From Marine Group I thaumarchaeote (GTDB taxonomy: Archaea > Thermoproteota > Nitrososphaeria > Nitrososphaerales > Nitrosopumilaceae), in assembly GCA_013390745.1 (NCBI GenBank), contig JACASX010000006.1:1-56616 (forward strand): a stretch of DNA of 56,616 nucleotides. The letters run 5' to 3'. Each line of letters begins with the position of its first letter. Within the stretch, counting starts at the first letter, position 1. A program made the translations under genes and the position numbers. The notes below the pieces were generated by a model. The model searched no databases and was not told the origin of the DNA. It saw only the letters and a program-made list of their open reading frames with translations. This document shows, in pieces, positions 872 to 48,770 of the stretch.

Positions 872-1507
872 CTATTTGTTTATTTTTTGAATTAACTCAA
901 ACCCCTCGGCTTTTTTTAATCCCACTTCAATTCCTCTGAGAACTGCCAGGTTTTCAATCGCGGTAATGGATCTTGCGTTTGGAAACTCTTCAATTTCTGA
1001 TTTATACATTTTAAATCCCTTAATTTTAAAAACAAATTCGTTCTCAATATTTTCAAAAATATTTGGTCTGAATGGCGTTTTTGTGCGTCCCTGTAATTCA
1101 TAGCATAATATTTTTTTTACACCAGATTTTGGTCTACACGTAACTAATGTCGAATCGAAAACAGACTGATGATCCAAATTTAGATCATTCCTGGGTGCTG
1201 TATAGACAACTTCAGGCTTAAATTTTTTTATAATCTCCTCCAATTTTTTATTAATATCTAGATGCGATAAATTTAATCTCATATCTGGAAAATCTAAAAA
1301 TATAGTTTTTGAAATACCCAAAATTTTTGAACATTTTTTACATGCGTTCTTTCTAACTTGAATCATTTTTTTGTCCTTATATTGAGCAGTAGCCCCTTCA
1401 GAAACAACACATAAAATAATTCTATTTTTTTTACTTAATTTTTTTATGGTACCGCCCATTCCTAAAACTTCATCATCTGGATGCGGTGAAATAACTAAAA
1501 TATTCAT
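872..1507 (-). CDS. PIG-L/LmbE family N-deacetylase (copy 1)
   Basis: A 211-residue PIG-L family protein. The N-terminal PHPDDEVLGMGG motif (His9, Asp11, Asp12) and the DLNLDH motif (about residues 108-113) together form the zinc site and catalytic Asp of GlcNAc-type deacetylases such as MshB, PIG-L and LmbE. Members remove the N-acetyl group from GlcNAc-containing substrates in the cytoplasm. The length is typical for the family. It is the last gene of a minus-strand set with a frameshifted DegT aminotransferase and a CapD/PglF-like dehydratase. That context suggests a UDP-linked amino-sugar substrate. A paralogue at 44480-45169 lies beside a second dehydratase and a second LpxD-like gene. 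The family call is firm; the substrate is inferred. Confidence 0.88.
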   Translation of the reverse strand: MNILVISPHPDDEVLGMGGTIKKLSKKNRIILCVVSEGATAQYKDKKMIQVRKNACKKCSKILGISKTIFLDFPDMRLNLSHLDINKKLEEIIKKFKPEVVYTAPRNDLNLDHQSVFDSTLVTCRPKSGVKKILCYELQGRTKTPFRPNIFENIENEFVFKIKGFKMYKSEIEEFPNARSITAIENLAVLRGIEVGLKKAEGFELIQKINK

Positions 1508-17213: not shown

Positions 17214-18431
17214 ATGAAAAAAACTGTCATTATTGGAATCATTTGTGGATTAGTACTATCCGGATCTTTAATTTACGTATTGTATGATGATACATCTCTT
17301 CGATATAATGTTGGTACATTAGTTGGTGTAAAAGATAAACCACAGATTCTTGATGATAATTTTGTAATAAGTGAAGTGATAGTTGGAATTGAAAGTGTAA
17401 CTGCACTCACTTTTATTGAAAACGACATTCTTTTCCTTGAAAAAGAAAGTGGTAAAATTAGACATATTCAAAATGGTATACTTGTTGATGAACCACTTTG
17501 GGATTTTCAAGTAAAACAGGAAGGATGTAACTGCTATACTGAATCTGGATTATTGGGAATAACTTCAGTAGATTCTTATGTTTATGTCTATGTAACTGAG
17601 GAATTGAATCATGACGAACCAAATGTAGAAAATAGAATCTATAAATTTACATGGAAAGATAACAAATTGCAAAATCCATTATTGCTTCATATTCTACCTG
17701 CAGATGAGCTCGTGCATCATGGTGGTGCGTTGGTTTCAGATTTAGACGAAAATGTTTTTGCTACTGTGGGTGATCAGAACCTTGAAACTTCAATACAAAA
17801 TTATGATAATGATATAATTGCTGATGCAGGAATTATTCTAAGAGTAGGCTATGATCAAAACTTTAAATCTCCATCAGCCTCCATGAATCCCCTTGATCAT
17901 TACTATGCAATAGGAATTAGAAACAGTTTTGGATTAGCTGTTGATCCAATAACAGGATATTTGTGGGATACTGAGAATGGTCCTGCAGTTTATGATGAGA
18001 TAAATCTAGTATTTCCAAAATTTAATAGTGGATGGGCTAAGATTCTTGGACCATCTAACGAAATTGTATCACTAAAACATACTTCTGATTTTAGCTACAG
18101 CGATCCTGAATTCTCTTGGGAGCTTACTGTTGCCCCTACTGGAATCTCATTTGTTGATGAAAAATGGGATAAATATCAAAACAGTCTTTTTGTAGGAGAC
18201 TGTAAAGGAGGTAATCTTTATCGATTTGAACTTAATGATTCTAGAGATGAATTTATTTTTGAAAACCCAGATTTGCAAGATCTTGTTTTAAATGAACTGG
18301 ATGATAATGAAGAAATCGTCTTTGGAAAAGGCTTTGGTTGTATTACTGATCTAGAATACTCATCTGATGGCTATTTGTATGTAATATCTTATCTCAATAA
18401 CGGTGCAATCTATAAAATTCATCCAAAATAA
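17214..18431 (+). CDS. Glucose/sorbosone dehydrogenase-like beta-propeller (copy 1)
   Basis: A 405-residue extracytoplasmic protein with an N-terminal membrane anchor or uncleaved signal (residues about 4-25). It then follows the soluble PQQ aldose-sugar-dehydrogenase fold: a GLLGITS blade, VHHGGALVSDLDENVFATVGD (His-Gly-Gly, catalytic-base region), GIRNSFGLAVDP with TGYLWDTENGP, and a C-terminal YLYVIS blade. The His of the HHGG motif and the Arg of GIRN are kept, so PQQ-type chemistry is possible, though a PQQ source is not visible here. It faces outside and could oxidise or bind a surface glycan. A paralogue at 28832 lacks the motif His. It may be co-transcribed with the CMAH-like gene. 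Confidence 0.82.
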   Translation: MKKTVIIGIICGLVLSGSLIYVLYDDTSLRYNVGTLVGVKDKPQILDDNFVISEVIVGIESVTALTFIENDILFLEKESGKIRHIQNGILVDEPLWDFQVKQEGCNCYTESGLLGITSVDSYVYVYVTEELNHDEPNVENRIYKFTWKDNKLQNPLLLHILPADELVHHGGALVSDLDENVFATVGDQNLETSIQNYDNDIIADAGIILRVGYDQNFKSPSASMNPLDHYYAIGIRNSFGLAVDPITGYLWDTENGPAVYDEINLVFPKFNSGWAKILGPSNEIVSLKHTSDFSYSDPEFSWELTVAPTGISFVDEKWDKYQNSLFVGDCKGGNLYRFELNDSRDEFIFENPDLQDLVLNELDDNEEIVFGKGFGCITDLEYSSDGYLYVISYLNNGAIYKIHPK

Positions 18432-28831: not shown

Positions 28832-30238
28832 ATGAGAAATTTTTTTGTATTCGCATTGTTGGGTTTTGTGTTATTGTCATTTTATATGGTAAATGATGTA
28901 AACGCAGATTCAAAACAAAATCCAGTTGTTTTAGATTCTGAATTTCAAATTGAAGAATTTGTCTCTGGTTTATCTGTTCCTGTAAATATGGAATTTATTG
29001 GGGATGATCTATTGGTTTTAGAAAAAAATAGTGGAACTGTTAGGCATGTTAAAAATAATGCTTTGTTAGATGTGCCTGTTCTGGATGTAGAAGTTAGTAA
29101 TTATGGTGAACAGGGATTGTTAGGTATTACTTCAATTGAAAATGATGTTTATTTATTTTTTACAGAGGCATATCATGATGGAGGTCGTGCTCTTGAAAAT
29201 AGAGTTTACAAATATTCATGGAATGGAAATGAATTAGTAGAGCCCATTCTTTTAAAGAAAATTCCTGGTTTTGAAAGAGAGTATGTGGGTGGTGAGTTAG
29301 TTAGTGATCTGGATGGCAAAGTGTATGCCATCACTGGTGAGAATTATAAAATCGGTTTATTGCAAAACCATCTTGAAAATGAGAGTTATAGACATTTTAG
29401 TACTGCAGCATCAAAGAACGAAAAATCTCGTCTCACTATTTCTGATAGTTTCGATTACTTACTTTCTTGCATTAAAGTTTCTTTTCAACATTACACTACA
29501 AATCCATTTGGTTGGCAATCTGAACAACCAGATCTTTCTGACAATCCACCAGAATTGAATTTATTTAATATTCTAGGAAATCTTGATTCATGCATAAGGC
29601 AGTTCACTTACGAGAATTTTTCTAATGGTCATTGGAAGGATACTAGCACAATTATTCAAATTGAACCTGAGGGTGATTATGCTGCAATTGGCATTCGTAA
29701 TAGTTTTGGTCTTGCTGTTGATCCTCAGACAGGATATTTGTGGGATACTGAAAATGGACCTGATGTTTATGATGAAATAAATCTAGTTGAAAATAAATTC
29801 AACAGCGGCTGGGCTAAAATTCAAGGTCCTTCGAACGGAAAAACTATCCCACAAGTTCCTGGATATGAAAATTATCATTACAGTGAACCTGAATTTAGTT
29901 GGGAATTACCAGTAGGGGTAACTGCAATTGAATTTCCTAATTCAATTGACTTCAAAAAATACAAAGATTTTCTGTTTGTTGCAGACGCAAATAATGGAAT
30001 AATTTACAAATTCAAACTTGATGACACAAGAACAAAATTCATTTTTCAATCACCGCATTTACAAGATAACATTCTTAATATTTCACAAAATTCTGATGAT
30101 GGTTCTTTAACTGAATCCAGGGCCGAAATTGTATTTGCAAAAAATCTTGGGCTTATTAGTGATATGAAATTTGGACCTGATGGTGCATTATATGTAATTT
30201 CTCTTATGGAAGGTAAAATCTATAAAATTTCTAGTTAG
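28832..30238 (+). CDS. Sugar-dehydrogenase-like beta-propeller, copy 2 (motif His missing)
   Basis: A 468-residue secreted paralogue of the 17214 protein. A cleavable-looking signal peptide (residues 1-25, ending near VNA-DS) precedes the propeller. Shared motifs: LSVPVNMEFIGDDLLVLEKNSG, GLLGITS, GIRNSFGLAVDPQTGYLWD, ENGPDVYDEINLVE and a C-terminal ALYVIS. The HHGG motif of copy 1 reads YVGG here (near residue 153), so the expected catalytic His is gone. About 80 extra residues (about 175-255) with two Cys lie between blades. It may bind a glycan or act as a structural surface protein rather than an enzyme. It is a single plus-strand gene whose end overlaps the GT2 gene by 8 bases. Confidence 0.8.
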   Translation: MRNFFVFALLGFVLLSFYMVNDVNADSKQNPVVLDSEFQIEEFVSGLSVPVNMEFIGDDLLVLEKNSGTVRHVKNNALLDVPVLDVEVSNYGEQGLLGITSIENDVYLFFTEAYHDGGRALENRVYKYSWNGNELVEPILLKKIPGFEREYVGGELVSDLDGKVYAITGENYKIGLLQNHLENESYRHFSTAASKNEKSRLTISDSFDYLLSCIKVSFQHYTTNPFGWQSEQPDLSDNPPELNLFNILGNLDSCIRQFTYENFSNGHWKDTSTIIQIEPEGDYAAIGIRNSFGLAVDPQTGYLWDTENGPDVYDEINLVENKFNSGWAKIQGPSNGKTIPQVPGYENYHYSEPEFSWELPVGVTAIEFPNSIDFKKYKDFLFVADANNGIIYKFKLDDTRTKFIFQSPHLQDNILNISQNSDDGSLTESRAEIVFAKNLGLISDMKFGPDGALYVISLMEGKIYKISS

Positions 30239-34000: not shown

Positions 34001-34846
34001 TTAGTATAATTTATCAGATTTATTATGAATAAATTTCTCGAATGACGTGAACTGGAATTTTTCTAACAAATCTTCCATTTTGTTATAAGCTTTGCCAATG
34101 TTATGAAATGTGATGAAATGATCTTTCTTAGACAGTTTCATCTTAGGCATGAATTCAGGCGTTAATTCCCACGAATGAATATAAAAAACTCCAGGTAGAT
34201 TTTCTTTTTCGTAAGATTTTATGGCATTTTCAATTATGCGTGAGGGCAAAGTCCTCAAGTAAAACCCTCCAGCAGCAGGTATTTTTTTCCCTAAGAATTT
34301 TGTTACCATCATGGGAAATTCAATAATTTTTCCATCGTTAGAATTTCCTTCTAAAAATTTACTTGAAATTTTATACGGTTTTTTTTCAGCATTCGGGATT
34401 CCATATAAGCTTGTTTTTGCTGGAACCACACTGCTATCATACACGTAATCATTTTCTTCTAAAACATCAATTAACCACGAACTAGTAGTATTTAGTGAAA
34501 AACTTGGAGCACGGAATCCTTTTGATTTTCCATCAGTTAATTCATCAAACTTTTTTATTTCTTCATTAAACTTTTCTTTAAAATTAGGCGAATCAATTCT
34601 TGTATGTTTCATTGTATGAAATCCAACCTCGTGCCCGTTATCTAAAATAAGATCCAACAACTCTGGTTTGAATTCTAACAGTTCTCCAACAACAAAGAAT
34701 GTTGCTTTTGTATCTTTTTTTCTTAATAGATCTAATATCTTATCTATACCCTGAATAATTTTTGGCTGATTATCTTTTTTAGAAATGTATTTTTGAATTA
34801 ATTCTGGGTGGAACCAATCTTCAAAATCTATTCCTAAAATATTCAT
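34001..34846 (-). CDS. NodB-type polysaccharide deacetylase
   Basis: A 281-residue carbohydrate esterase 4 family protein. Motif 1 is DFEDWFH (7-13, catalytic base and metal Asp), motif 2 is GFHTMKHTR (75-83, metal His77 and His81) and motif 3 is GFRAPSFSL. The C-terminal half fits the DUF3473 extension of exopolysaccharide-locus deacetylases (GGFYLRTLPS, FYIHSWELTPE). It would remove N- or O-acetyl groups from a lipid-linked glycan. There is no signal peptide, so it should act in the cytoplasm. It sits 9 bases after the acyltransferase gene and just before the HAD-nucleotidyltransferase operon on the same strand. Confidence 0.87.
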   Translation of the reverse strand: MNILGIDFEDWFHPELIQKYISKKDNQPKIIQGIDKILDLLRKKDTKATFFVVGELLEFKPELLDLILDNGHEVGFHTMKHTRIDSPNFKEKFNEEIKKFDELTDGKSKGFRAPSFSLNTTSSWLIDVLEENDYVYDSSVVPAKTSLYGIPNAEKKPYKISSKFLEGNSNDGKIIEFPMMVTKFLGKKIPAAGGFYLRTLPSRIIENAIKSYEKENLPGVFYIHSWELTPEFMPKMKLSKKDHFITFHNIGKAYNKMEDLLEKFQFTSFEKFIHNKSDKLY

Positions 34847-34855
34847 AGAAATTCT

Positions 34856-35398
34856 TTAATGATTAATTTTTTTAACAACTCTTGCGGGATTTCCAACAGC
34901 AATACAATAATCTGGGATATCTTGTGTCACGACGCTCCTTGGTGAAATAATTGAATTTTCTCCAACAGTTACACCCGCAATAATTATCGCTCCAGGATTA
35001 ATTACTACCCCTGATTTAATAACTACTTTAGATACTTTTCTAGGATAATCGCCTTGTTTCAAAAATAAATTTGCTGATGGGTTGCTATGAGCAAAAATCA
35101 TTGAGTGTGAACCCAACGTTACATTATTTCCTATCTCAATCATTTTTGGATAGATTAAATCAATCAGTACGTATGGGTTAACATGACAGTTTTTTCCAAT
35201 TTTAACTCCTCTAGCTCTCTGCATTTTAACAGAAAAATTTGATAATGGTGAAGAATATGCTAAAGAATGCAAAATCCAACTTCGTAAAAATTTTGTCTTC
35301 ATTTTCAATCTCCCAAAACTACCTGAATAACCATAGTAATCCATCACTTCTTTTTCATTAATTGGAAAAGTATCCTTTTCATCAGCCATGTTAATCAT
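34856..35398 (-). CDS. Hexapeptide-repeat acyltransferase (WcaF/maltose-acetyltransferase-like)
   Basis: A 180-residue left-handed beta-helix protein. The repeats include IGKNCHVNPYVLID, IGNNVTLGSHSMIF and VTVGENSIISPRSVVT, with the ending VGNPARVVKKI that is typical of sugar O-acetyltransferases. The N-terminal 50 residues are non-helical and tyrosine-rich. An alternative ATG at 35389 is possible. Expected activity is O- or N-acylation of a sugar using acetyl-CoA or another acyl donor. It leads a minus-strand set with the polysaccharide deacetylase, and is divergent from the FkbH-ACP operon, so it is a candidate user of that operon's acyl-ACP. Confidence 0.83.
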   Translation of the reverse strand: MINMADEKDTFPINEKEVMDYYGYSGSFGRLKMKTKFLRSWILHSLAYSSPLSNFSVKMQRARGVKIGKNCHVNPYVLIDLIYPKMIEIGNNVTLGSHSMIFAHSNPSANLFLKQGDYPRKVSKVVIKSGVVINPGAIIIAGVTVGENSIISPRSVVTQDIPDYCIAVGNPARVVKKINH

Positions 35399-35496: not shown

Positions 35497-37242
35497 TTGG
35501 AAAAAACACTATCGGAATATATGACATTATCAAAGAATCTTGATGATCTGAAATTAGATAAAAAATTAAAAGTTGCAATACTTCCTAGTTTCACTTTAAA
35601 TGGGTTAGATGAAACATTTCATGTTAAATGCTCAGAGATTGGAATTAGGTATCAATCATACGTTGCAGGTTATAATCAATACAACCAAGAGATTTTAGAT
35701 CCCAAATCCAAGCTTTACTCATTTTCACCGGATATCACATTTCTAATTATTGATATACGTACGTTATTGAATGAAATATTCCACCATCCATATTCTATTT
35801 CTTCATCAGAGCGTAAAAAAATCGTAAAAGAAAAAATTAGTGAATTACGAAACTTGATTCTACAATTTAAAAAAAATTGTGGTTCTAAACTGATTATATC
35901 TAATTTTTCTTTGCCATCATATTCTCCAAGTGGTCTGATTGAAACGAAATCTGAATTTGGGTTTCATGATATGATTAGTGAAATAAATCAAGAACTTTCT
36001 AAAATTGCAAAGGATGAATCTTCTGTCTATGTTTATAATTTTAATCAATTTGTTTCTAAATTTGGTGAAAAGAATATTTTTGATTACAGACAGTTTTTCA
36101 TAGGAGATATCAAAATCGCATTTGATTATATTCCATATTTAGCTAATGACTTGATGGGTTATGTCAAGCCCATGTTGGGTCTTAATAAAAAATGCATAGT
36201 TCTTGATTTAGATAATACGTTATGGGGTGGCATTGTTGGTGAGGATGAATTTGATGGAATTGAACTTGGACAATCATCAAATGGTAAAGCATTTGTTGAA
36301 TTTCAAAAACATCTTTTGTCTCTTTGGCAGCAAGGAATTATTCTAGCAATAAACAGCAAAAATAATTTCGAAGATGCAATTAAGGTTATCAGGGAACATC
36401 CAGACATGGTGTTAAAAGAAGAACATTTTGCAAGCTTGCAGATTAATTGGAATGATAAAGCACAAAATCTTAAAGCAATTTCTGAAGAACTAAACATTGG
36501 ACTTGGCAGTATTGTATATTTTGATGATGACCCAGTTAATCAAGAGAGAATTAAACAGGAAATACCTGAAGTTTTAACTGTAAAATTACCAGAGGATCCG
36601 TCTCAATATACAGACATTCTAATGAGTTTAAATGATTTTAACGTCTTACAGAAAACTGATGAGGATCTAAAAAGAGGTAAAATGTATTCTCAACAAAGGC
36701 AAAGATCAGAACTAGAACAATCTACAAAGAGTATTGATGATTTCTTAAAACAGCTAAATATCAAAGTCAAAATAAAAAAAGCAGACAAATTTACTATACC
36801 AAGAATTTCGCAACTAACTCTAAAAACTAATCAATTTAACCTCACAACAAAGCGATATCAGGAAGAAGACATTATCAAATTTTCAAGTGATAATAATATG
36901 ATAGTAGGATGTGCACAAATCGAAGATAAATTTGGGGATAGTGGGATTACAAACGCCTTCATAATTGAAAAAAATGATAAAGAATGGAAAATTGATACAT
37001 TTCTGCTCAGCTGCAGAGTAATTGGCAGAGGTATTGAAGATGCTATAATTTCTTATATTTTAAACGAGGCCAAGAATCAAGGCGTAGGAAAGATCAGGGC
37101 AGATTTTATTCCAACTAAAAAAAATAGCCCTGCTGAAGCATTCTTACCAAATTGTGGATTCAAAAAAGAAAACGGATATTGGATATATGACCTAAAGGAC
37201 TCAATAAAAACTCCCGATCATTTACTATTGGAAGTAGAATGA
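35497..37242 (+). CDS. FkbH-like HAD-IIIC protein (glyceryl-ACP synthase family)
   Basis: A 581-residue protein: an N-terminal SGNH-like segment (about 25-215), a HAD-IIIC phosphatase core with LDLDNTLWGG (Asp237 and Asp239), FDDDPVNQERIK (around 345) and a C-terminal GNAT-like part (about 420-575). This is the FkbH layout, known in polyketide clusters for dephosphorylating 1,3-bisphosphoglycerate and loading glyceryl onto a carrier protein. The next gene is an acyl carrier protein, overlapping by 4 bases, which supports that role. The start is TTG at 35497; the first ATG is at 35521. A TATA-like aatattta lies about 34 bases upstream. In this locus the product may be glyceryl- or glycolyl-ACP for sugar acylation; this is inference. 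Confidence 0.85.
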   Translation: MEKTLSEYMTLSKNLDDLKLDKKLKVAILPSFTLNGLDETFHVKCSEIGIRYQSYVAGYNQYNQEILDPKSKLYSFSPDITFLIIDIRTLLNEIFHHPYSISSSERKKIVKEKISELRNLILQFKKNCGSKLIISNFSLPSYSPSGLIETKSEFGFHDMISEINQELSKIAKDESSVYVYNFNQFVSKFGEKNIFDYRQFFIGDIKIAFDYIPYLANDLMGYVKPMLGLNKKCIVLDLDNTLWGGIVGEDEFDGIELGQSSNGKAFVEFQKHLLSLWQQGIILAINSKNNFEDAIKVIREHPDMVLKEEHFASLQINWNDKAQNLKAISEELNIGLGSIVYFDDDPVNQERIKQEIPEVLTVKLPEDPSQYTDILMSLNDFNVLQKTDEDLKRGKMYSQQRQRSELEQSTKSIDDFLKQLNIKVKIKKADKFTIPRISQLTLKTNQFNLTTKRYQEEDIIKFSSDNNMIVGCAQIEDKFGDSGITNAFIIEKNDKEWKIDTFLLSCRVIGRGIEDAIISYILNEAKNQGVGKIRADFIPTKKNSPAEAFLPNCGFKKENGYWIYDLKDSIKTPDHLLLEVE

Positions 37243-37481
37243 TGTCCAAAAAACTTTATGATATTATTTCGAAAGTATTTTCCGTCCAAATATCAGAAAT
37301 AAATGATGAATCCAGTCCAGAAACAATTGAATCTTGGGATTCATTTAATGGCTTAATTTTAGTTGATGAACTTGAAAGTAATTTCAATATTAAATTCTCA
37401 ATATCAGAAATAATTGATGTGAAAAATGTGAAAGACATTAAAAGACATCTAAACAATCATGGAGTTGATTTGGATGAGTGA
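37239..37481 (+). CDS. Acyl carrier protein
   Basis: An 80-residue acidic four-helix carrier protein. Ser35 in ESWDSFNGLILVDELE is the 4'-phosphopantetheine attachment site, in the expected D-S-x-x-x-L context. It overlaps FkbH by 4 bases (ATGA) and MaoC by 8 bases, with AcpS two genes later, so it forms a coupled operon with its own activating enzyme. Archaea do not use ACP for membrane lipids, so this ACP most likely carries a small acyl group for glycan or amino-sugar decoration. High confidence on identity. Confidence 0.93.
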   Translation: MMSKKLYDIISKVFSVQISEINDESSPETIESWDSFNGLILVDELESNFNIKFSISEIIDVKNVKDIKRHLNNHGVDLDE

Positions 37482-37905
37482 AAAACCATCAGAATATTCT
37501 TTTGATGAAATTGAACTAGGCATGCAAAAAAGCTTCAAAGTTGATATCTCAAAAAATATGTTGGATGTATTTGGACGTGATACAGGAGATTATAACCCAC
37601 TACATATGAGCGAAGAATATGCTTCTTCGACTTCTTTTAAAAAGAGAGTTTGTAGTGGAATGTTTTTGGCCTCATTTTTCTCCAGACTAGTTGGTATGTA
37701 TTTGCCAGGTAAACATGCGCTTCACATATCTCAATCCTTGACTTTTGTCAATCCATGCTTTATCGGCGAAACGATCACTGTTGAGGGTAAAGTTATTGAC
37801 AAAAGTCCTGCCACTAAAATTATCAAATTAGAAACTACAATTACTAACGAGTCAGGTAAGAGAGTTATTGATGGAAAGGCACGAGTAATTGTTAGAGATG
37901 ATTGA
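37474..37905 (+). CDS. MaoC-like dehydratase
   Basis: A hot-dog-fold protein of about 143 residues. The hydratase motif FGRDTGDYNPLH contains Asp39 and His44, the pair used by (R)-specific enoyl hydratases/MaoC to add or remove water from an acyl thioester. QSLTFVNPCFIGETI matches the substrate-loop region. I chose the ATG at 37474, which overlaps the ACP stop (atgagtga); the frame is open to a TTG at 37459. With the FabG-like SDR (46835) and KAS III-like protein (47604) it would cover dehydration in a short acyl-ACP elongation cycle; no enoyl reductase is visible. Confidence 0.86.
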   Translation: MSEKPSEYSFDEIELGMQKSFKVDISKNMLDVFGRDTGDYNPLHMSEEYASSTSFKKRVCSGMFLASFFSRLVGMYLPGKHALHISQSLTFVNPCFIGETITVEGKVIDKSPATKIIKLETTITNESGKRVIDGKARVIVRDD

Positions 37906-38251
37906 AAATTTAGGAATAGGAATCGATATTATTGAAGTATCACGCTTTAGAAGAAAAAAGTATGAAGAAAACAAGAATTTCTATAAAAAAATTTTTGTTA
38001 AATCAGAAATCAATTACTGCCTAAAATTTAAAAATTCAGCCGAGCGATTTGCAGGAAAATTTGCAATTAAGGAGGCAGTGATAAAATCAATATCAGAAAA
38101 AATCGGATTTCTTGATATAGAAATTGTCTATGTGGGAAGAAAACCAAGAATTAGGCTCAAAAATTCGTTAGAAAAAAAATATAATTTTATTGTATCAGTT
38201 TCACATGAAAAAGAATTTGCAATTGGGATTGTTATTGCAGAAAAAATATAA
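37898..38251 (+). CDS. acpS: Holo-ACP synthase
   Basis: A short phosphopantetheinyl transferase of about 117 residues. GIGIDIIEVSRF carries Asp10, and FAGKFAIKEAVIKS carries Glu59; these correspond to the Mg-binding pair of AcpS. The C-terminal VSVSHEKEFAIGIV is also typical. It transfers phosphopantetheine from CoA to the Ser of ACP. I chose the ATG at 37898, which overlaps the MaoC stop by 8 bases (atgattga); an upstream TTG at 37889 is possible. It is the last gene of the FkbH-ACP-MaoC-AcpS operon. Finding it in this operon indicates a self-contained carrier-protein system. Confidence 0.9.
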   Translation: MIENLGIGIDIIEVSRFRRKKYEENKNFYKKIFVKSEINYCLKFKNSAERFAGKFAIKEAVIKSISEKIGFLDIEIVYVGRKPRIRLKNSLEKKYNFIVSVSHEKEFAIGIVIAEKI

Positions 38252-38264
38252 TGGGAAAATTACT

Positions 38265-39308
38265 TTAAGACAAGATAGATTTTTTAGCTTTTTTACTCAA
38301 TCGTAATAAAATAGAATTAAAGCGTCTATTCACAGAACCTTCTGTGACGTCTACAGGAACGAATATCTCATCAGGAAATTTCTTAACCAATTCTTCATCA
38401 GGCACAATTTTCTTACTTTCAAGTTCTTGGTATTTTTTTTCTATTGATTTTTTGTTTCGTAATATATCAAGATCTGCCTTTATTTTTGCGCCCACAAATC
38501 CCTTTGATAAATAAAAAAACCAAACAAAAAAATCAACTAGCAATAACGACGGTAACATTTTTGCATATGTTTTTTTAGAATAGTGAGTTAGAAGACAGTA
38601 TTTTCTATTTCTTTCTAACCAATAGAATTTTTTAGCACTCCATTTTAGTGAATAACTTTCTGCATGATAAATTATAGAATTAGGAACATAAAATGAATTA
38701 ATACCAAGCTGAGCAGCTCTCCATCCCAAATCCAAGTCGTCATGATACAAAAATAGAAAGGAGTCTAACAACCCTATTTTATCTAAAACTTCTTTTGAAG
38801 TAAAAAGACATGTACCAGAAGCATAACCTATTTTTTCAATATCTGTTTTTATAAGATTATCATTTTTGCCCTTATCCCTTGCAAATCCAAAACCAAAAAT
38901 ATGTAACATATTACCAGTACTTTGCAAAATCTCTGTTTTGTCTAATGAAAGAATTTTCGGTTGGTATAACCCCTCTCCAAATTTATTATATGCAGAAATT
39001 AACTCTTCAATCCAATTAGATTCTACAATTGTATCAGGATTAAGAATTATAATATAATCTCCTTTCGCCTCTCTGATCCCAATATTATTTCCTTCACAGT
39101 ATCCAAAATTTTCATTATTTTGAATCAATGTTATATCTGGATATTTTTCTTTGCATGTTTCCTGACTTTTATCAGTTGAAATATTATCAACTACAATAAT
39201 CTCCAAGTTTTTGTATGCTGATTTTTTGATAGACTCTATACAATTTAGTAATAATTCTCCTGCATTATAGTTCAAGACTATTACGCTAACTAGCGGATTT
39301 TCATTCAT
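38265..39308 (-). CDS. GT2 rhamnosyltransferase-like glycosyltransferase
   Basis: A 347-residue family 2 enzyme of the rhamnosyl/galactofuranosyl-transferase type. It has VSVIVLNYNAGELLLNCIESI (N-terminus), VVDNISTDKSQET, ILNPDTIVESNWI (DxD-like metal site) and YHDDLDLGWRAAQLG (the catalytic ED/DD-W region). One hydrophobic segment near residues 250-270 suggests membrane association. It is a minus-strand gene next to RmlA/RmlB and convergent to AcpS. A dTDP-deoxysugar donor is likely from context. Acceptor unknown. Confidence 0.87.
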   Translation of the reverse strand: MNENPLVSVIVLNYNAGELLLNCIESIKKSAYKNLEIIVVDNISTDKSQETCKEKYPDITLIQNNENFGYCEGNNIGIREAKGDYIIILNPDTIVESNWIEELISAYNKFGEGLYQPKILSLDKTEILQSTGNMLHIFGFGFARDKGKNDNLIKTDIEKIGYASGTCLFTSKEVLDKIGLLDSFLFLYHDDLDLGWRAAQLGINSFYVPNSIIYHAESYSLKWSAKKFYWLERNRKYCLLTHYSKKTYAKMLPSLLLVDFFVWFFYLSKGFVGAKIKADLDILRNKKSIEKKYQELESKKIVPDEELVKKFPDEIFVPVDVTEGSVNRRFNSILLRLSKKAKKSILS

Positions 39309-39360
39309 ATTTCAAACATTTTTCGCTTGGATATTTACTGTTACTAATCAAAAATTTTTC

Positions 39361-40401
39361 TTACAAAGTAATTTTCGTCCCTTCCCCAAGCAAGAAAATT
39401 TTCTTAGTTTTATCTTTATTATTACCATGTAGGTGGCAGTTTGCTGAAACGATGCTATCTTTTATGTTTAAACCACCATCTATTTTACAACCAGACATTA
39501 TTATGGAATTTTCTATAACAACATCAGCTGATATTATTGTATCATCACCTATACTTGTATTAGGACCAATCGAAACAGATCCGTCAATTTCACAATTTTT
39601 ACCAATTATACATGGACGTCTGTAAGTCAAGTCTAGCGAAACCTTGTCGTGTCTGTTAGATTCAAAAACAGCGTCTGCTGTCCCACAAATATGCTCCAGC
39701 ACTTGTCTATTTGCATTTAAGATATCCTCTGGAGTCCCAGTATCTTTCCAGTAGTCCGTTATTGTTTCGTAACCAATATTGTCGTTTTGTTTTAGTAAAT
39801 TATCTAAGGCATCTGTTATCTCTAATTCATTCCGCCAAGACGGTTTCAAATTATCTATAACTTCAAAAATTAGTGGGGTTAACAAGTAAATGCCAGTCAC
39901 TGCTAGATTTGATGTAGGTTTTTTTGGTTTTTCTGTGATTTTTACAATCTTTTTATTTTCAACATCTGCAATTCCAAATCTGCTTGGGTTATCTACTTCA
40001 CATAACAAAACTGTGGCATCATAATCTGATTTATTAAAATTCTTTACAAAATCTGTAATGGATTTTTGTATAATATTATCTCCTAGGAAAACAAGAAATT
40101 TTTCGTTGTTGACAAATTCCTTGCATAATCTAATTGCATGTGCAATTCCCCTAGGCTCATCTTGTTCAATATATGTGATATTTACATTAAATTTTTCGCC
40201 ATTACCATAACGCTCTCTCACTTTGTTTGAACCTAATCCACCTATGATTATTGCAATATCTGTAATACCAGCATCACGAATTGATTCAATACAATATTGT
40301 GACATTGGCTTATTTGCAATTGGTAAAAGCTGTTTTGGACCAGTATGTGTTAACGGTCTTAATCTAGTTCCGTGTCCTCCATGAAGAATAATACCTTTCA
40401 T
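39361..40401 (-). CDS. rmlA: Glucose-1-phosphate thymidylyltransferase, long archaeal form
   Basis: A 346-residue nucleotidyltransferase. GGHGTRLRPLT (8-18) and GPKQLLPIANKPM are the nucleotide and sugar-phosphate sites; FLGDN carries the metal Asp and WKDTGTPEDIL is the late motif typical of RmlA. Beyond about residue 245 a left-handed beta-helix tail (IGKNCEIDGSVSIGPN) is added, as in archaeal long RmlA-type proteins. The reaction makes dTDP-glucose from dTTP and glucose-1-phosphate. The gene lies 31 bases downstream of RmlB on the same strand. No RmlC or RmlD is visible, so the product likely feeds the 2,6-dideoxy or amino-sugar genes. Confidence 0.9.
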   Translation of the reverse strand: MKGIILHGGHGTRLRPLTHTGPKQLLPIANKPMSQYCIESIRDAGITDIAIIIGGLGSNKVRERYGNGEKFNVNITYIEQDEPRGIAHAIRLCKEFVNNEKFLVFLGDNIIQKSITDFVKNFNKSDYDATVLLCEVDNPSRFGIADVENKKIVKITEKPKKPTSNLAVTGIYLLTPLIFEVIDNLKPSWRNELEITDALDNLLKQNDNIGYETITDYWKDTGTPEDILNANRQVLEHICGTADAVFESNRHDKVSLDLTYRRPCIIGKNCEIDGSVSIGPNTSIGDDTIISADVVIENSIIMSGCKIDGGLNIKDSIVSANCHLHGNNKDKTKKIFLLGEGTKITL

Positions 40402-40432
40402 ATTTTATCATAAAAACAATATAGAGTTAAAT

Positions 40433-41419
40433 CTAATTTTTCCATGGTGTTGGATTTAATGCACTTGGTGTTAGATCTTTCCAAATTTCTTCGTGGTTGA
40501 GATACCAATCAACAGTTTTTTGAATACTTTCATCAAAACTAGTTTTTGATTTCCAGCCCATTTCCTTAGAAATTTTGTTTGAGTTCATACTATACCTATA
40601 ATCATGACCAGGTCTATCTTCCACAAATTCTATTAAATCTTCAGATTTTCCCATGATGTCTAAAATTCTTTTTACAATTGTAATATTATCCATTTCGTTA
40701 TTTCCAGAAATATTATACGATTGCCCAGCTTTGCCATCTAAAAGTGATAGTAAGACACCATTACAATGATCATCAACATAAATCCAATCTCTAATGTTAG
40801 TGCCTTTACCATAAATTGGAATTTTTTTTCCCAGTTTTGCTAAAATAATTGTTTTTGGAATCAGTTTTTCTGGGAATTGTCTTGGTCCATAATTATTAGT
40901 ACATCTAGTAATTATTACATCAGAATCATATGTAACAGAATACGAATTTATCAGAAGCTCAGCTGCAGCTTTAGTTGCAGCGTATGGGCTGGATGGATTA
41001 AATTTTGATTCTTCAGTAGCTGTATCAGATGATAAACTCCCAAATACTTCATCAGTGGAAATTTGCACCATCCGCTTTTTTTGCTTGGTTATTATATCTA
41101 GAATAGTAAATGCACCTCTAATATTAGACACTAAGAATGGATTGGCATCACTAATACTACGATCAACAAAAGATTCTGCAGCAAAATTTACAACCACATC
41201 ACATTTGGAAATAGTTTCTCCCATAAGTCGTTTATTTGTTATATTTCCTTTTACAAATTCATATTTTTCATTATTCTGAATATCAGACAAATTTTTTCTA
41301 TTTGCACCATATAACTCAGCGTCCACATTGATTATTTCAAAATTATCTGAGTGATTCAATAATTTTAGAATAAAATTGCTTCCAATAAAGCCCAAACCAC
41401 CAGTTACAAGAATTTTCAT
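40433..41419 (-). CDS. rmlB: dTDP-glucose 4,6-dehydratase
   Basis: A 328-residue extended SDR with the full RmlB signature: VTGGLGFIGSNF (5-16), the NFAAESFVDRS motif, QISTDEVFGSL (active-site T-D-E), SPYAATKAAAE (catalytic Tyr and Lys), RCTNNYGPRQFPEKLIP and RDWIYVDDHC. It converts dTDP-glucose to dTDP-4-keto-6-deoxyglucose, the entry compound for deoxy- and amino-deoxysugars. A TATA-like element on the minus strand (about 41438-41449) fits a leaderless start at 41419. It forms an operon with rmlA. Confidence 0.92.
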   Translation of the reverse strand: MKILVTGGLGFIGSNFILKLLNHSDNFEIINVDAELYGANRKNLSDIQNNEKYEFVKGNITNKRLMGETISKCDVVVNFAAESFVDRSISDANPFLVSNIRGAFTILDIITKQKKRMVQISTDEVFGSLSSDTATEESKFNPSSPYAATKAAAELLINSYSVTYDSDVIITRCTNNYGPRQFPEKLIPKTIILAKLGKKIPIYGKGTNIRDWIYVDDHCNGVLLSLLDGKAGQSYNISGNNEMDNITIVKRILDIMGKSEDLIEFVEDRPGHDYRYSMNSNKISKEMGWKSKTSFDESIQKTVDWYLNHEEIWKDLTPSALNPTPWKN

Positions 41420-44423: not shown

Positions 44424-44479
44424 TTTTTAATAACAATTACATAATATAATTAATATACGAATAATGATTTTTGAAAGCA

Positions 44480-45169
44480 ATGAATATTCTAATTATTGCC
44501 GCACATCCTGATGATGAAATTTTAGGTATGGGTGGTACTATTCTAAAACATACATCTCACAAGGATAATGTTACAATTGTATACATGGCGACAGGTGTTA
44601 CTGCTAGAAAGGCAAGTGAAGATCTTAAATCAAGAGAAGATAAAAACCTACAAAATGAAATTTTGGAATTAAGAAATGATGCATTAAAGGCAGCTAAACT
44701 TCTAAATGTAAAAAATGTCAAATTTTATGATTTCCCGGATAATCAAATGGATAGTATAACATTGTTGAAGGTTGTAAAAGCAATTGAAAAAGAAATTAAA
44801 TCTGTAAAGCCTGAAAGGATATACACAAATCATTATGGTGATCTTAATGTTGATCATAAAATTGTATCAAATGCAACCATAACTGCATGTAGACCGTTAA
44901 AGGGACCTGTCAAAGAGATACTTTCATTTGAAGTTCTTTCTTCAACTGAATGGAGTTATCCATATAGTTTCAAGCCAAATTATTTTGTTAATATCAAAAA
45001 AGAATTACCAAAGAAAATTGATGCTATGAAAATGTTCAAAAGCGAAATTAGAGAATTTCCACATCCACGTTCACCAGAAAATATGAATTATGTAGCAGGT
45101 AGATGGGGATCTGTTTCTGGTTTTGAAGCAGCTGAAGCTTTTGAGATAATCAGAAAAATTGAGGAATAA
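44480..45169 (+). CDS. PIG-L/LmbE family N-deacetylase (copy 2)
   Basis: A PIG-L family protein of about 229 residues with AHPDDEILGMGG (His9, Asp11, Asp12 from the ATG at 44480) and YGDLNVDHK (the second metal and catalytic region). The C-terminal FKSEIREFPHPRSPE block is shared with copy 1 (872). I chose the ATG at 44480; the frame is open to a TTG at 44471. It lies between pseB and the LpxD-like gene. That order suggests deacetylation of the 2-N-acetyl group followed by re-acylation. A TATA-like atataatta lies about 32 bases upstream. Confidence 0.87.
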   Translation: MNILIIAAHPDDEILGMGGTILKHTSHKDNVTIVYMATGVTARKASEDLKSREDKNLQNEILELRNDALKAAKLLNVKNVKFYDFPDNQMDSITLLKVVKAIEKEIKSVKPERIYTNHYGDLNVDHKIVSNATITACRPLKGPVKEILSFEVLSSTEWSYPYSFKPNYFVNIKKELPKKIDAMKMFKSEIREFPHPRSPENMNYVAGRWGSVSGFEAAEAFEIIRKIEE

Positions 45170-46172: not shown

Positions 46173-46833
46173 AAAATTAAAACAAATAAAGGAACGTGGT
46201 TGTAAAGACTTTATCAAAATTAAATATTCTGGAAAAAATGTGGTTTTGAAATTAGTTGATGGATCAGATGAAACAGTGAAACTATTGACTAATTGGAGGA
46301 TTAAATATAGAGATATGTTTGCTACTGATTTTGTCATAAGTGAAGAAAAAACAAAAAATTGGATTAAACATGATGTTTTAGAAAATCCTGATAAAATTGT
46401 ATTTTTAATATATGTTAAAAATAGAAAAATTGGAATTATTAGTACTTCGAATTATGATGAAAATACAAATTCCTGTATTTTGGATACAATGATGAAAGAG
46501 CCAACGTTTTTCTTACCTGGACTTATGACTACTATTGAAAAAGTGTATTTAAAATGGATGTTTGATGAATTAGCCATATCAAAAATTACAGGATTTTTAT
46601 TTTCAGATAACAAAAAAATGATGGATATTCATACAAAATGTGGTTGGATTATCACTGATGTTGCACCGATTGAAAAGAAATCTATGAATAAAAATTCTGA
46701 AATTATATGGCAAAAGGTAAATTCAAACTCTAATAATGTGAAACCAAAAAGATATTTTAATTTAATTGAACTTACAAGAGAAAATTTAATGAAAAATTTT
46801 AATGATATACAATATGAAGTTATATGTGATTAA
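46156..46833 (+). CDS. GNAT acetyltransferase (PseH-like)
   Basis: A GNAT protein of about 225 residues: an N-terminal basic segment (MRTYHKKLKQIKERG), a core with VKNRKIGIISTSNYDENTN (central strand-turn) and a C-terminal DNKKMMDIHTKCGWI block typical of GNAT acetyltransferases acting on sugars. In the pseudaminic pathway PseH (GNAT) acetylates the 4-amino group, and the position between LpxD-like and SDR genes fits. I chose the ATG at 46156, 17 bases inside the LpxD-like gene; an upstream ATG at 46129 is less likely. The PseH role is inferred. Confidence 0.78.
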   Translation: MRTYHKKLKQIKERGCKDFIKIKYSGKNVVLKLVDGSDETVKLLTNWRIKYRDMFATDFVISEEKTKNWIKHDVLENPDKIVFLIYVKNRKIGIISTSNYDENTNSCILDTMMKEPTFFLPGLMTTIEKVYLKWMFDELAISKITGFLFSDNKKMMDIHTKCGWIITDVAPIEKKSMNKNSEIIWQKVNSNSNNVKPKRYFNLIELTRENLMKNFNDIQYEVICD

Positions 46834-46834
46834 T

Positions 46835-47581
46835 TTGAAAGTGGATAAAAAAATTGTATTAATAACTGGTGGGAGCAGAGGAATAGGAAAATCGATTGCT
46901 GAAAAATTTGTCTCTGATGGTTCAACTGTTATTATTACTTCAAAAAATAAAACAAAATTGAAACAAACATCAAAGGAATTAGGCGACCTTTTTTTTGTCC
47001 CTGGTGATATTAAAAATGAAGTTGATGTAAAAAATGTGATTGATAAAACTATCAAAAAATTTGGTCGAATTGATGTTCTTGTTAATAATGCTGGGATATT
47101 ACCCAAAATGAAACCATTACATCAAATATCTGAAAAAGAATGGAATGAAATTATAGATGTTAATTTAAATGGCCAATTTCGGTTTACAAAAGCTGTTATT
47201 CCACATATGAAAAAACATGGTGGTTCAATAATTAATATATCGTCTGATGCTGGTTTGAAAGCATTTGAAAATTTTCCTGCAGATGCATACATTGCATCAA
47301 AAGCTGCCATGATTCAACTTACAAAATCATGGGCACTAGAATATGCTAAAAATAATATTCGTGTAAATTGTGTTTGTGCTGCAGTAATTGATACTGAAAT
47401 GACGAGAAAATATTGGTTAGATACTAAAGAAAAAAGAAAGGTAACTGCTGCTGAACATCCTTTAGGACGAATTGGTACTGGAAATGATGTTGCTAACGCT
47501 GTTTTGTTTTTTGCAAAAGATGATTCCTCATGGATTACAGGCTCAATTTTACCTGTTGATGGCGGTGTTTCAGCAAAATAA
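46835..47581 (+). CDS. FabG-like short-chain dehydrogenase/reductase
   Basis: A classical SDR of about 248 residues: ITGGSRGIGKSIAEKF (NADPH loop), VNNAGILPKMKPLHQ, the catalytic IINISSDAG and YIASKAAMIQL (Ser, Tyr, Lys), and the C-terminal FAKDDSSWITGSILPVDGG typical of 3-oxoacyl-ACP reductases. It could reduce a 3-ketoacyl-ACP in the ACP module or a keto-sugar intermediate. I chose the TTG at 46835, two bases after the GNAT stop; a GTG at 46841 is also possible. It is convergent to the KAS III-like gene, whose product it could reduce. Family firm, substrate inferred. Confidence 0.86.
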   Translation: MKVDKKIVLITGGSRGIGKSIAEKFVSDGSTVIITSKNKTKLKQTSKELGDLFFVPGDIKNEVDVKNVIDKTIKKFGRIDVLVNNAGILPKMKPLHQISEKEWNEIIDVNLNGQFRFTKAVIPHMKKHGGSIINISSDAGLKAFENFPADAYIASKAAMIQLTKSWALEYAKNNIRVNCVCAAVIDTEMTRKYWLDTKEKRKVTAAEHPLGRIGTGNDVANAVLFFAKDDSSWITGSILPVDGGVSAK

Positions 47582-47603: not shown

Positions 47604-48770
47604 TTATATTTTTTCAACTTCAACTATATCCAAACCAAATCCCATAGTAATTCCGATAAGTAATCCTTTTCCTGAGATTGAATTATTATCAAACATTGCT
47701 TTTTCAAGAACAGTTGGTATGCTTACTCCAGTAAGATTTCCATATTCTTTTAGTGTGTCAAATGATTCCTTTATTTGATTGTTATCGAGTTTATACAAAT
47801 TTTGAAACCCTTCTAAAATTTTTAAACTGCCCGTATGTATCATAACTTTGTTTTGTTTCGTCATAAACTTTTCAACTAACTTTTCATCAAAATTTTCTAT
47901 ATCATTTCCTAGAGATACATTAAGTACTTTTTTTGAATACTCTAATGATCTTTTAAGAATATCACTTTCAGCAGTTAATTCATATTCATACATATGATTT
48001 GCTGAATTACCAACTAATCTTACACACGCCTTTCTATAATCTAGTTCATCAAAATTTACTGCATGTGTGATCTTACTTACTTTTACTCCAGTTGTTTGCA
48101 ATTCATCCATACTTATAACAAAAGCAGCAACTCCATCACCAAAAAGAAATGAAAACATTGTTGAAACCCATTTTGAAATTTGTTTATTTTTATCATATTG
48201 ATCGTTAGAAATTTCCTTTGGATTTCGTACTGTTTGATTATCTTTTAAGTGAGGAAGATACCATCCAGAATTACATCCTGAAATTACAAAAAGTATTTTA
48301 TCGCTTGAATTATGAACAAAATTTTTACCTAATTCTAATAATTTTGGTAAAGTAGAGCATGCCATACCCTGAATATTGAAATGAGGAATGAATTTTGATA
48401 AACCCAATTTGGTTAGAATGATAGAAGATAATCCTGGACTCAGAAAATCACTATCTTCATAAGCTGCAACAATACATGTTATATCACTTTTTTTCAAGTT
48501 TAGATCTGACAAGCATTTTTCAGCAACTTTTACACATAAATCTGAAATCGGTTCTCCATCTGCGTTTGATTTAATACGTTCACTTGATTTAGAAATATAA
48601 CGATCAAACGGTCTAACGAAATATCGGTTTTTTACACCTAATTGGTAAATATTTTCTTTAACATCCTCTGATAGTTTGTTACCCAAAGCTTCAATCATTT
48701 CTTCTGTGTTATACTTAAACTCAGGATATGCTCTTGTTAATCCAGAAATTATTAAATTACTTTCACTCAT
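47604..48770 (-). CDS. KAS III/chalcone-synthase-like condensing enzyme
   Basis: A 388-residue thiolase-fold enzyme. The catalytic triad is visible: Cys138 in NIQGMACSTLPKLLE, His312 in VMIHTGSLKILEGF and Asn345 in EYGNLTGVSIPTVLE. FLFGDGVAAFVIS and the C-terminal IGITMGFGLDIVEVE resemble type III PKS/chalcone-synthase relatives as much as FabH. It would condense an acyl thioester with a malonyl unit, or transfer an acyl group. In this locus it lies convergent to the FabG-like SDR and just downstream of NeuB, about 10 kb from the ACP operon. It may build or extend the acyl group on ACP. Uncertain whether the starter is ACP- or CoA-bound. Confidence 0.82.
   Translation of the reverse strand: MSESNLIISGLTRAYPEFKYNTEEMIEALGNKLSEDVKENIYQLGVKNRYFVRPFDRYISKSSERIKSNADGEPISDLCVKVAEKCLSDLNLKKSDITCIVAAYEDSDFLSPGLSSIILTKLGLSKFIPHFNIQGMACSTLPKLLELGKNFVHNSSDKILFVISGCNSGWYLPHLKDNQTVRNPKEISNDQYDKNKQISKWVSTMFSFLFGDGVAAFVISMDELQTTGVKVSKITHAVNFDELDYRKACVRLVGNSANHMYEYELTAESDILKRSLEYSKKVLNVSLGNDIENFDEKLVEKFMTKQNKVMIHTGSLKILEGFQNLYKLDNNQIKESFDTLKEYGNLTGVSIPTVLEKAMFDNNSISGKGLLIGITMGFGLDIVEVEKI

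Follow-up and report, generated by a model that had tools for sequence, protein, structure and literature searches.

Why should a marine ammonia-oxidising archaeon keep an acyl carrier protein (ACP) and a holo-ACP synthase? Archaeal fatty acid synthesis has been proposed to be independent of ACP, and ACP with its processing enzymes has been reported in few unrelated archaea, where it was ascribed to transfer from bacteria (PMC3533463). The question is raised by four adjacent genes, FkbH-ACP-MaoC-AcpS (35497-38251), which lie in an island of surface-sugar genes within the window, i.e. the whole stretch of 56,616 nucleotides analysed. The host is a Nitrosopumilaceae archaeon, as the preliminary description had correctly taken it to be archaeal, and is Nitrosopelagicus-like, its closest named relatives being Nitrosopelagicus-like marine thaumarchaea. 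Its genome is a draft of 1.08 Mb in 18 contigs, 86 % complete.

A role in membrane fatty acid synthesis, which had already been doubted, is not supported by the gene inventory. In the 86 % complete draft no FabD was matched by PF00698, and for ketoacyl synthases PF00109 gave matches only below the cut-off; type II fatty acid synthesis was therefore rejected. Scanning of the genome with PF00550 gave a single match, the ACP of the operon, which is thus the only carrier protein detected; this status could change, since the genome is an incomplete draft and the profile is weak here (it missed the ACP in seven of ten relatives tested, and in four of these seven tblastn places an ACP next to FkbH). 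Phosphoglycerate kinase, which can make 1,3-bisphosphoglycerate (1,3-BPG), is present in the genome.

Genes around the carrier protein

The four genes are all on the plus strand and are linked by the ATGA-type or 8-base overlaps claimed for them at first reading. The first (35497..37242) starts with TTG and encodes a 581 amino acid protein with the complete architecture of the FkbH family: an FkbH_N domain (PF21211, 56 bits), a HAD-IIIC domain with the DxDxT motif (DLDNTLWGG) and a GNAT-like C-terminal domain with a conserved cysteine in the motif SCR. The match to TIGR01686 scores 316 bits (cut-off 147), and Asp237, Asp239, Lys321, Asp343/344 and Cys506 are invariant in an alignment of 47 archaeal and bacterial sequences. 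In the AF2 model (pLDDT 89.5) the N-terminal two thirds match 3slr (BF1531) and the C-terminal part matches GNAT folds. The protein is the proposed loader, a putative glyceryl-S-ACP synthase.

The FkbH stop codon (TGA, 37240-37242) overlaps the start of a free-standing ACP (37239..37481; ATG at 37239 or 37242), which is retained in nearly all archaeal loci. Its PF00550 score of 23 bits is barely above the cut-off of 20.8, and the phosphopantetheine site, Ser35 in the 80 amino acid form or Ser34 in the 79 amino acid form, lies in the motif DSF and is invariant, as is W32. The third gene (37474..37905), which overlaps the ACP gene by 8 bases if it starts at the most likely ATG, 37474 (the ACP gene ending at 37481), encodes a MaoC or (R)-specific enoyl-thioester hydratase-like protein matching the hot-dog family profile PF01575 with 62 bits. 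Its catalytic Asp39 and His44 are invariant in 24 sequences and its best solved relatives are the (R)-specific enoyl-CoA hydratases 5cpg and 1iq6. The fourth gene (37898..38251) starts at ATG 37898, again with an 8-base overlap (MaoC end 37905), and encodes an AcpS-type holo-ACP synthase (PF01648, 53 bits) which matches the solved AcpS structures 3hyk and 1f7l. Asp10, Lys58 and Glu59 are invariant, so that the Asp and Glu of the Mg/CoA site, like the ACP serine, are intact as had been stated. Compared codon by codon with L032, the closest of the named relatives, the five genes tested gave dN/dS values of 0.10-0.27, indicating purifying selection on functioning genes rather than chance open reading frames.

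The preliminary description regarded the operon as self-contained. The four genes are real, but two divergent genes on the minus strand (34001-35398), which it did not mention, belong to the unit as well. The one facing FkbH (34856..35398) encodes a left-handed beta-helix (hexapeptide, PF00132) acyltransferase, hereafter called LbH, and directly downstream of it on the same strand (34001..34846) is a NodB-type polysaccharide deacetylase (PF01522 and DUF3473, PF11959). The AF2 model of LbH (pLDDT 94) has the hexapeptide fold and matches both O-acetyltransferase and N-acyltransferase folds in structure searches, the maltose/galactoside O-acetyltransferases being nearer (TM about 0.65) than AntD-type sugar N-acyltransferases (TM about 0.45). 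The His-Pro position of the family is Asn-Pro in LbH, and an invariant His104 is found two residues upstream.

Distribution and exchange of loader and tailoring genes

Some 30 Nitrosopumilaceae loci keep the order deacetylase, LbH / FkbH, ACP, X, AcpS, where X is an exchangeable tailoring gene, and in most of them a GT2 glycosyltransferase, an RmlA-like nucleotidyltransferase and an RmlB-like SDR follow. The last three are at 38265..41419 on the minus strand in the window, the GT2 being identified with PF00535 and the RmlA-like and RmlB-like proteins from sequence and clustering; the GT2 and RmlA clusters are each found beside the cassette in 27 loci. A survey of the family for the same four-gene order had been advised, and although the order recurs, the set is not fixed, as a VOC protein can stand in place of MaoC and an AMP-ligase in place of FkbH. 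One named strain, Ca. Nitrosotenuis chungbukensis MY2 (L035), carries the set. Chance open reading frames and contamination were ruled out, because the unit is found in many independent genomes, including this strain record and single-contig assemblies.

FkbH was above the cut-off in 33 of 250 family genomes and AcpS in 43 of 250. Every one of the 33 genomes with FkbH also has AcpS, which the family scan detected in 30 of them and tblastn in the other three (G236, G175 and G038; loci L002, L022 and L031). When the tblastn matches are included, 46 genomes have AcpS: 33 with FkbH, eight without FkbH but with LbH, two with FkbH fragments and three in which it lies in longer open reading frames (238-271 amino acids). 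AcpS is rare in family genomes without the unit. Orthologues of LbH (E < 1e-48) are found in about 44 genomes, and LbH adjoins FkbH in almost all family loci. The gene next to LbH belongs to the same single deacetylase sequence cluster in 26 of 32 LbH loci; of the other six, one is truncated by the end of its contig, L042 and L043 carry a gene of another cluster in that position, one has the deacetylase two genes off, and in L079 and L080 there is no deacetylase next to LbH. According to Pfam a different PF01522 subfamily adjoins LbH in L042 and L121.

Glycan genes surround the cassette in almost all family loci. Occurrence of the operon away from such genes had been named at the outset as evidence against a link with surface sugars; a few cassettes do lie outside glycan islands (L083, L042, L043), but they retain the acyltransferase, and the polysaccharide deacetylase too in the two scanned for it (L083, L042), and a role in glycan acylation was therefore not taken as refuted.

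The unit is also found in other lineages. FkbH and ACP adjoin LbH, a PF01522 deacetylase-type gene and a VOC gene in three genomes of the archaeal family f14, rearranged compared with Nitrosopumilaceae yet together; in two of these loci (L119, L121) AcpS and the oligosaccharyltransferase STT3/AglB are also adjacent, the arrangement being AcpS-FkbH-ACP and LbH-deacetylase-VOC. Two Nitrospinota (Nitrospina) contigs have LbH, MaoC, SDR, FkbH, ACP and GT2 genes with a PIG-L GlcNAc deacetylase, which is unrelated to the PF01522 type. In the FkbH tree the Nitrososphaeria sequences group in a single clade (support 100/99), with acidobacterial and Nitrospinota branches nearest. A further contig filed as Nitrospina sp. 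(L039, PBKP01000031) falls in the archaeal Nitrosopelagicus clade for both FkbH and LbH, and is probably a mis-binned archaeal contig.

In the window, as in many relatives, position X holds MaoC; in about 12 relatives it holds a VOC protein (methylmalonyl-CoA epimerase/glyoxalase-like), and the FkbH tree calls for at least three changes between the two. The X gene is absent from L042 and L043, in which LbH, FkbH, ACP and AcpS are present. The loader is exchanged in a similar manner. Eight genomes (G024, G082, G176, G069, G075, G143, G167 and G188, the last with a distant LbH match) have kept AcpS and LbH without FkbH, and in four of them (G082, G176, G069, G075) the gap is filled by genes for an ACP and for a ligase of the AMP-binding type, about 478 amino acids long. 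The ligase is also in the place of FkbH in G024, where no ACP was called by the open reading frame rule used; genes of similar size are nearby in a different arrangement in G143 and G188, and the locus is split across contig ends in G167. Pfam confirmed the AMP-ligases of G024 (L088) and G082 (L089). The LbH tree calls for at least four changes of loader, some on weakly supported branches. Since LbH and AcpS persist when FkbH is replaced in situ by ACP and AMP-ligase, LbH appears to go with the carrier protein and not with FkbH as such. Protein identity between the window and L032 is 92-97 % over the HAD-GNAT part of FkbH, ACP and MaoC and 60-86 % on both sides, suggesting that the shared cassette segment was exchanged by recombination.

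A possible second ACP system was observed in L104 (G064), with an Antibiotic_NAT gene, a 79 amino acid open reading frame without Pfam match, VOC, AMP-ligase and formyl transferase genes, and AcpS on the other strand.

A proposed route for acylation of a surface sugar

On balance the unit is probably a dedicated ACP-dependent acylation system for a cell-surface glycan, in which FkbH would load a glyceryl group and LbH transfer it to a sugar. The preliminary description had proposed a small acyl-ACP for decorating a surface sugar; this is still the best reading and has been strengthened by the sugar-type acyltransferase, the polysaccharide deacetylase and the recurring gene order, while the chemistry and the acceptor can only be put conditionally. 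We infer the substrate, the individual reactions, their order and the acceptor sugar as follows. AcpS would put phosphopantetheine on the ACP. FkbH would take a glyceryl group from 1,3-BPG, its HAD domain removing the phosphate, and Cys506, which we take to be the carrier of the glyceryl group, would pass the acyl to ACP to give glyceryl-S-ACP. Glyceryl is the group predicted from the FkbH family, whose members in the pathways to tetronates and methoxymalonyl units are described as using 1,3-BPG to form glyceryl-ACP (PMC7489565). As a conjecture, MaoC might modify the ACP-bound acyl by hydration or dehydration at C2-C3, and in other lineages VOC might epimerise it at C2, also acting at the alpha carbon. 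LbH, proposed as the terminal acyltransferase from its co-occurrence with ACP and AcpS whatever the loader, would move the finished acyl to the sugar, plausibly onto an amine exposed by the polysaccharide deacetylase. The deacetylase thus suggests N-acylation of a glycan, without fixing the acceptor.

More tentatively, and with a chance that we would put well short of even, ammonia-oxidising archaea may possess a modular ACP-based system for de-N-acetylation and re-acylation, in which loaders (FkbH or AMP-ligase) and tailoring enzymes (MaoC, VOC, SDR) are recombined round a constant core of ACP, AcpS, LbH and deacetylase, altering the acyl epitope seen by phages or neighbours.

Several points count against glycan acylation. 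The enzymes closest to LbH are sugar O-acetyltransferases that depend on CoA, and the histidine of their His-Pro motif is replaced in it, so that its use of acyl-ACP is putative, as is transfer to N rather than O. It is hard to see what a MaoC hydratase would do with glyceryl-ACP. The marine relative Np. piranensis, which may or may not carry the cassette, showed no detectable N-glycan (PMC12153357).

Alternatively, FkbH might load a group other than glyceryl and MaoC act on a short 3-hydroxyacyl, e.g. 3-hydroxybutyryl, as in the viosamine island of Pseudomonas syringae, which has ACP, FabG-like and KAS III genes and a sugar with an N-(3-hydroxybutyryl) group (PMC3927599). The kinship of MaoC with (R)-specific enoyl-CoA hydratases and the SDR which accompanies it in L081, L082, L045 and L054 agree with this, but it is unlikely, as no KAS is conserved in the unit, FkbH from archaea falls in a single clade beside bacterial FkbH and keeps every HAD and Cys motif known for its family, and VOC replaces MaoC beside the same FkbH. 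To our knowledge, VOC has no role in 3-hydroxyacyl synthesis.

Transfer of the acyl to lipid, with LbH acylating an archaeal lipid headgroup or a prenyl-linked intermediate in the manner of the bacterial heptaprenylglyceryl phosphate O-acetyltransferase, is distinctly unlikely. That enzyme family (NF058585) is the best NCBIfam match of LbH, and the AF2 model has a helical N-terminal segment, but the score of 65 bits is far below the cut-off of 300, and the neighbours are polysaccharide deacetylase, glycosyltransferase and sugar-nucleotide genes, with STT3/AglB in f14. It is highly improbable that the unit, like FkbH clusters of bacteria, makes a secreted small molecule such as a tetronate or a metabolite of hydroxymalonyl type. 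Tetronates are made by FkbH together with ACP and a FabH-like synthase (PMC7489565), and about 9 kb from the cassette are genes for a KAS III-like protein (47604-48770) and a FabG-like SDR (46802-47581), but the former occurs in just 2 of the 31 genomes of the genus, for which reason this pair was rejected as the core of the pathway; the flanks of relatives gave no match to KAS, and no malonyltransferase was found in the 86 % complete genome.

Related systems and other genes of the islands

The unit resembles several known systems. The glyceryl-loading modules of polyketide and tetronate pathways share an FkbH-like protein and a free-standing ACP with the archaeal unit (PMC7489565), which in contrast has no polyketide synthase or FabH-like partner and has a sugar-type transferase and a deacetylase. 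In the flagellin glycosylation locus of Campylobacter jejuni, cj1302 has an FkbH domain and cj1301 is annotated as an epimerase (PMC7099621), and flagellin of strain 11168 bears a glyceric acid-derived group, a di-O-methylglyceric acid derivative of pseudaminic acid (PMC3958885), to which cj1302 may be linked. The likeness, drawn by description only, is that of an FkbH-domain gene and an epimerase-annotated gene in a surface-glycan locus; that locus is bacterial and no loader swap is described for it. The viosamine island (VioS, VioR, ACP, VioB) likewise has a dedicated ACP in a glycan island, providing an acyl for a sugar (PMC3927599), but is bacterial, with KAS III as the loader and 3-hydroxybutyryl as the acyl. 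It differs in these respects from the archaeal unit.

Rhizobial Nod factors are decorated by the NodB deacetylase, the founding member of PF01522, with the ACP NodF and the acyltransferase NodA. If the glycan-acylation model is right the two systems are alike, a sugar being deacetylated and then re-acylated from a dedicated ACP, but this is resemblance only: the systems are not homologous as such, NodA is unrelated to LbH, and the Nod acyl is a fatty acyl as opposed to a three-carbon group.

FkbH or ACP systems are thus already known from glycan loci of bacteria, whereas a modular archaeal kit was not found described in the literature covered, mostly other than subscription papers; similarly, no archaeal FkbH appeared in the titles and abstracts of the papers there that name both FkbH and archaea. 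Neither 'acyl' nor 'glyceryl' occurs in the text of the Nitrososphaerota glycan paper (PMC12153357). The unit indicates that a major marine archaeal group retains an ACP system whose apparent use is the acylation of surface sugars. It gives a testable prediction for the surface glycan of abundant, hard-to-culture archaea, a three-carbon acyl (+88 Da if glyceryl), and the cassette predicts which strains should differ, the swapped modules forming a natural set for the study of FkbH-dependent tailoring.

Other genes of the islands were also noted. The KAS III-like gene, on the minus strand, is also chalcone synthase-like, has visible Cys, His and Asn residues and adjoins NeuB genes. Two LmbE-like genes are present in the window (872-1507, minus strand; 44471-45169, plus strand), the latter a PIG-L deacetylase by Pfam, and inside the glycan island are genes for two predicted proteins that resemble each other and, by eye, sorbosone dehydrogenases (17214-18431 and 28832-30238). 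In L074, L076, L087 and L089 a gene pair which from sequence alone resembles MBOAT and SGNH/AlgJ-type proteins (clusters 38 and 39) is adjacent to the cassette or several kb from it.
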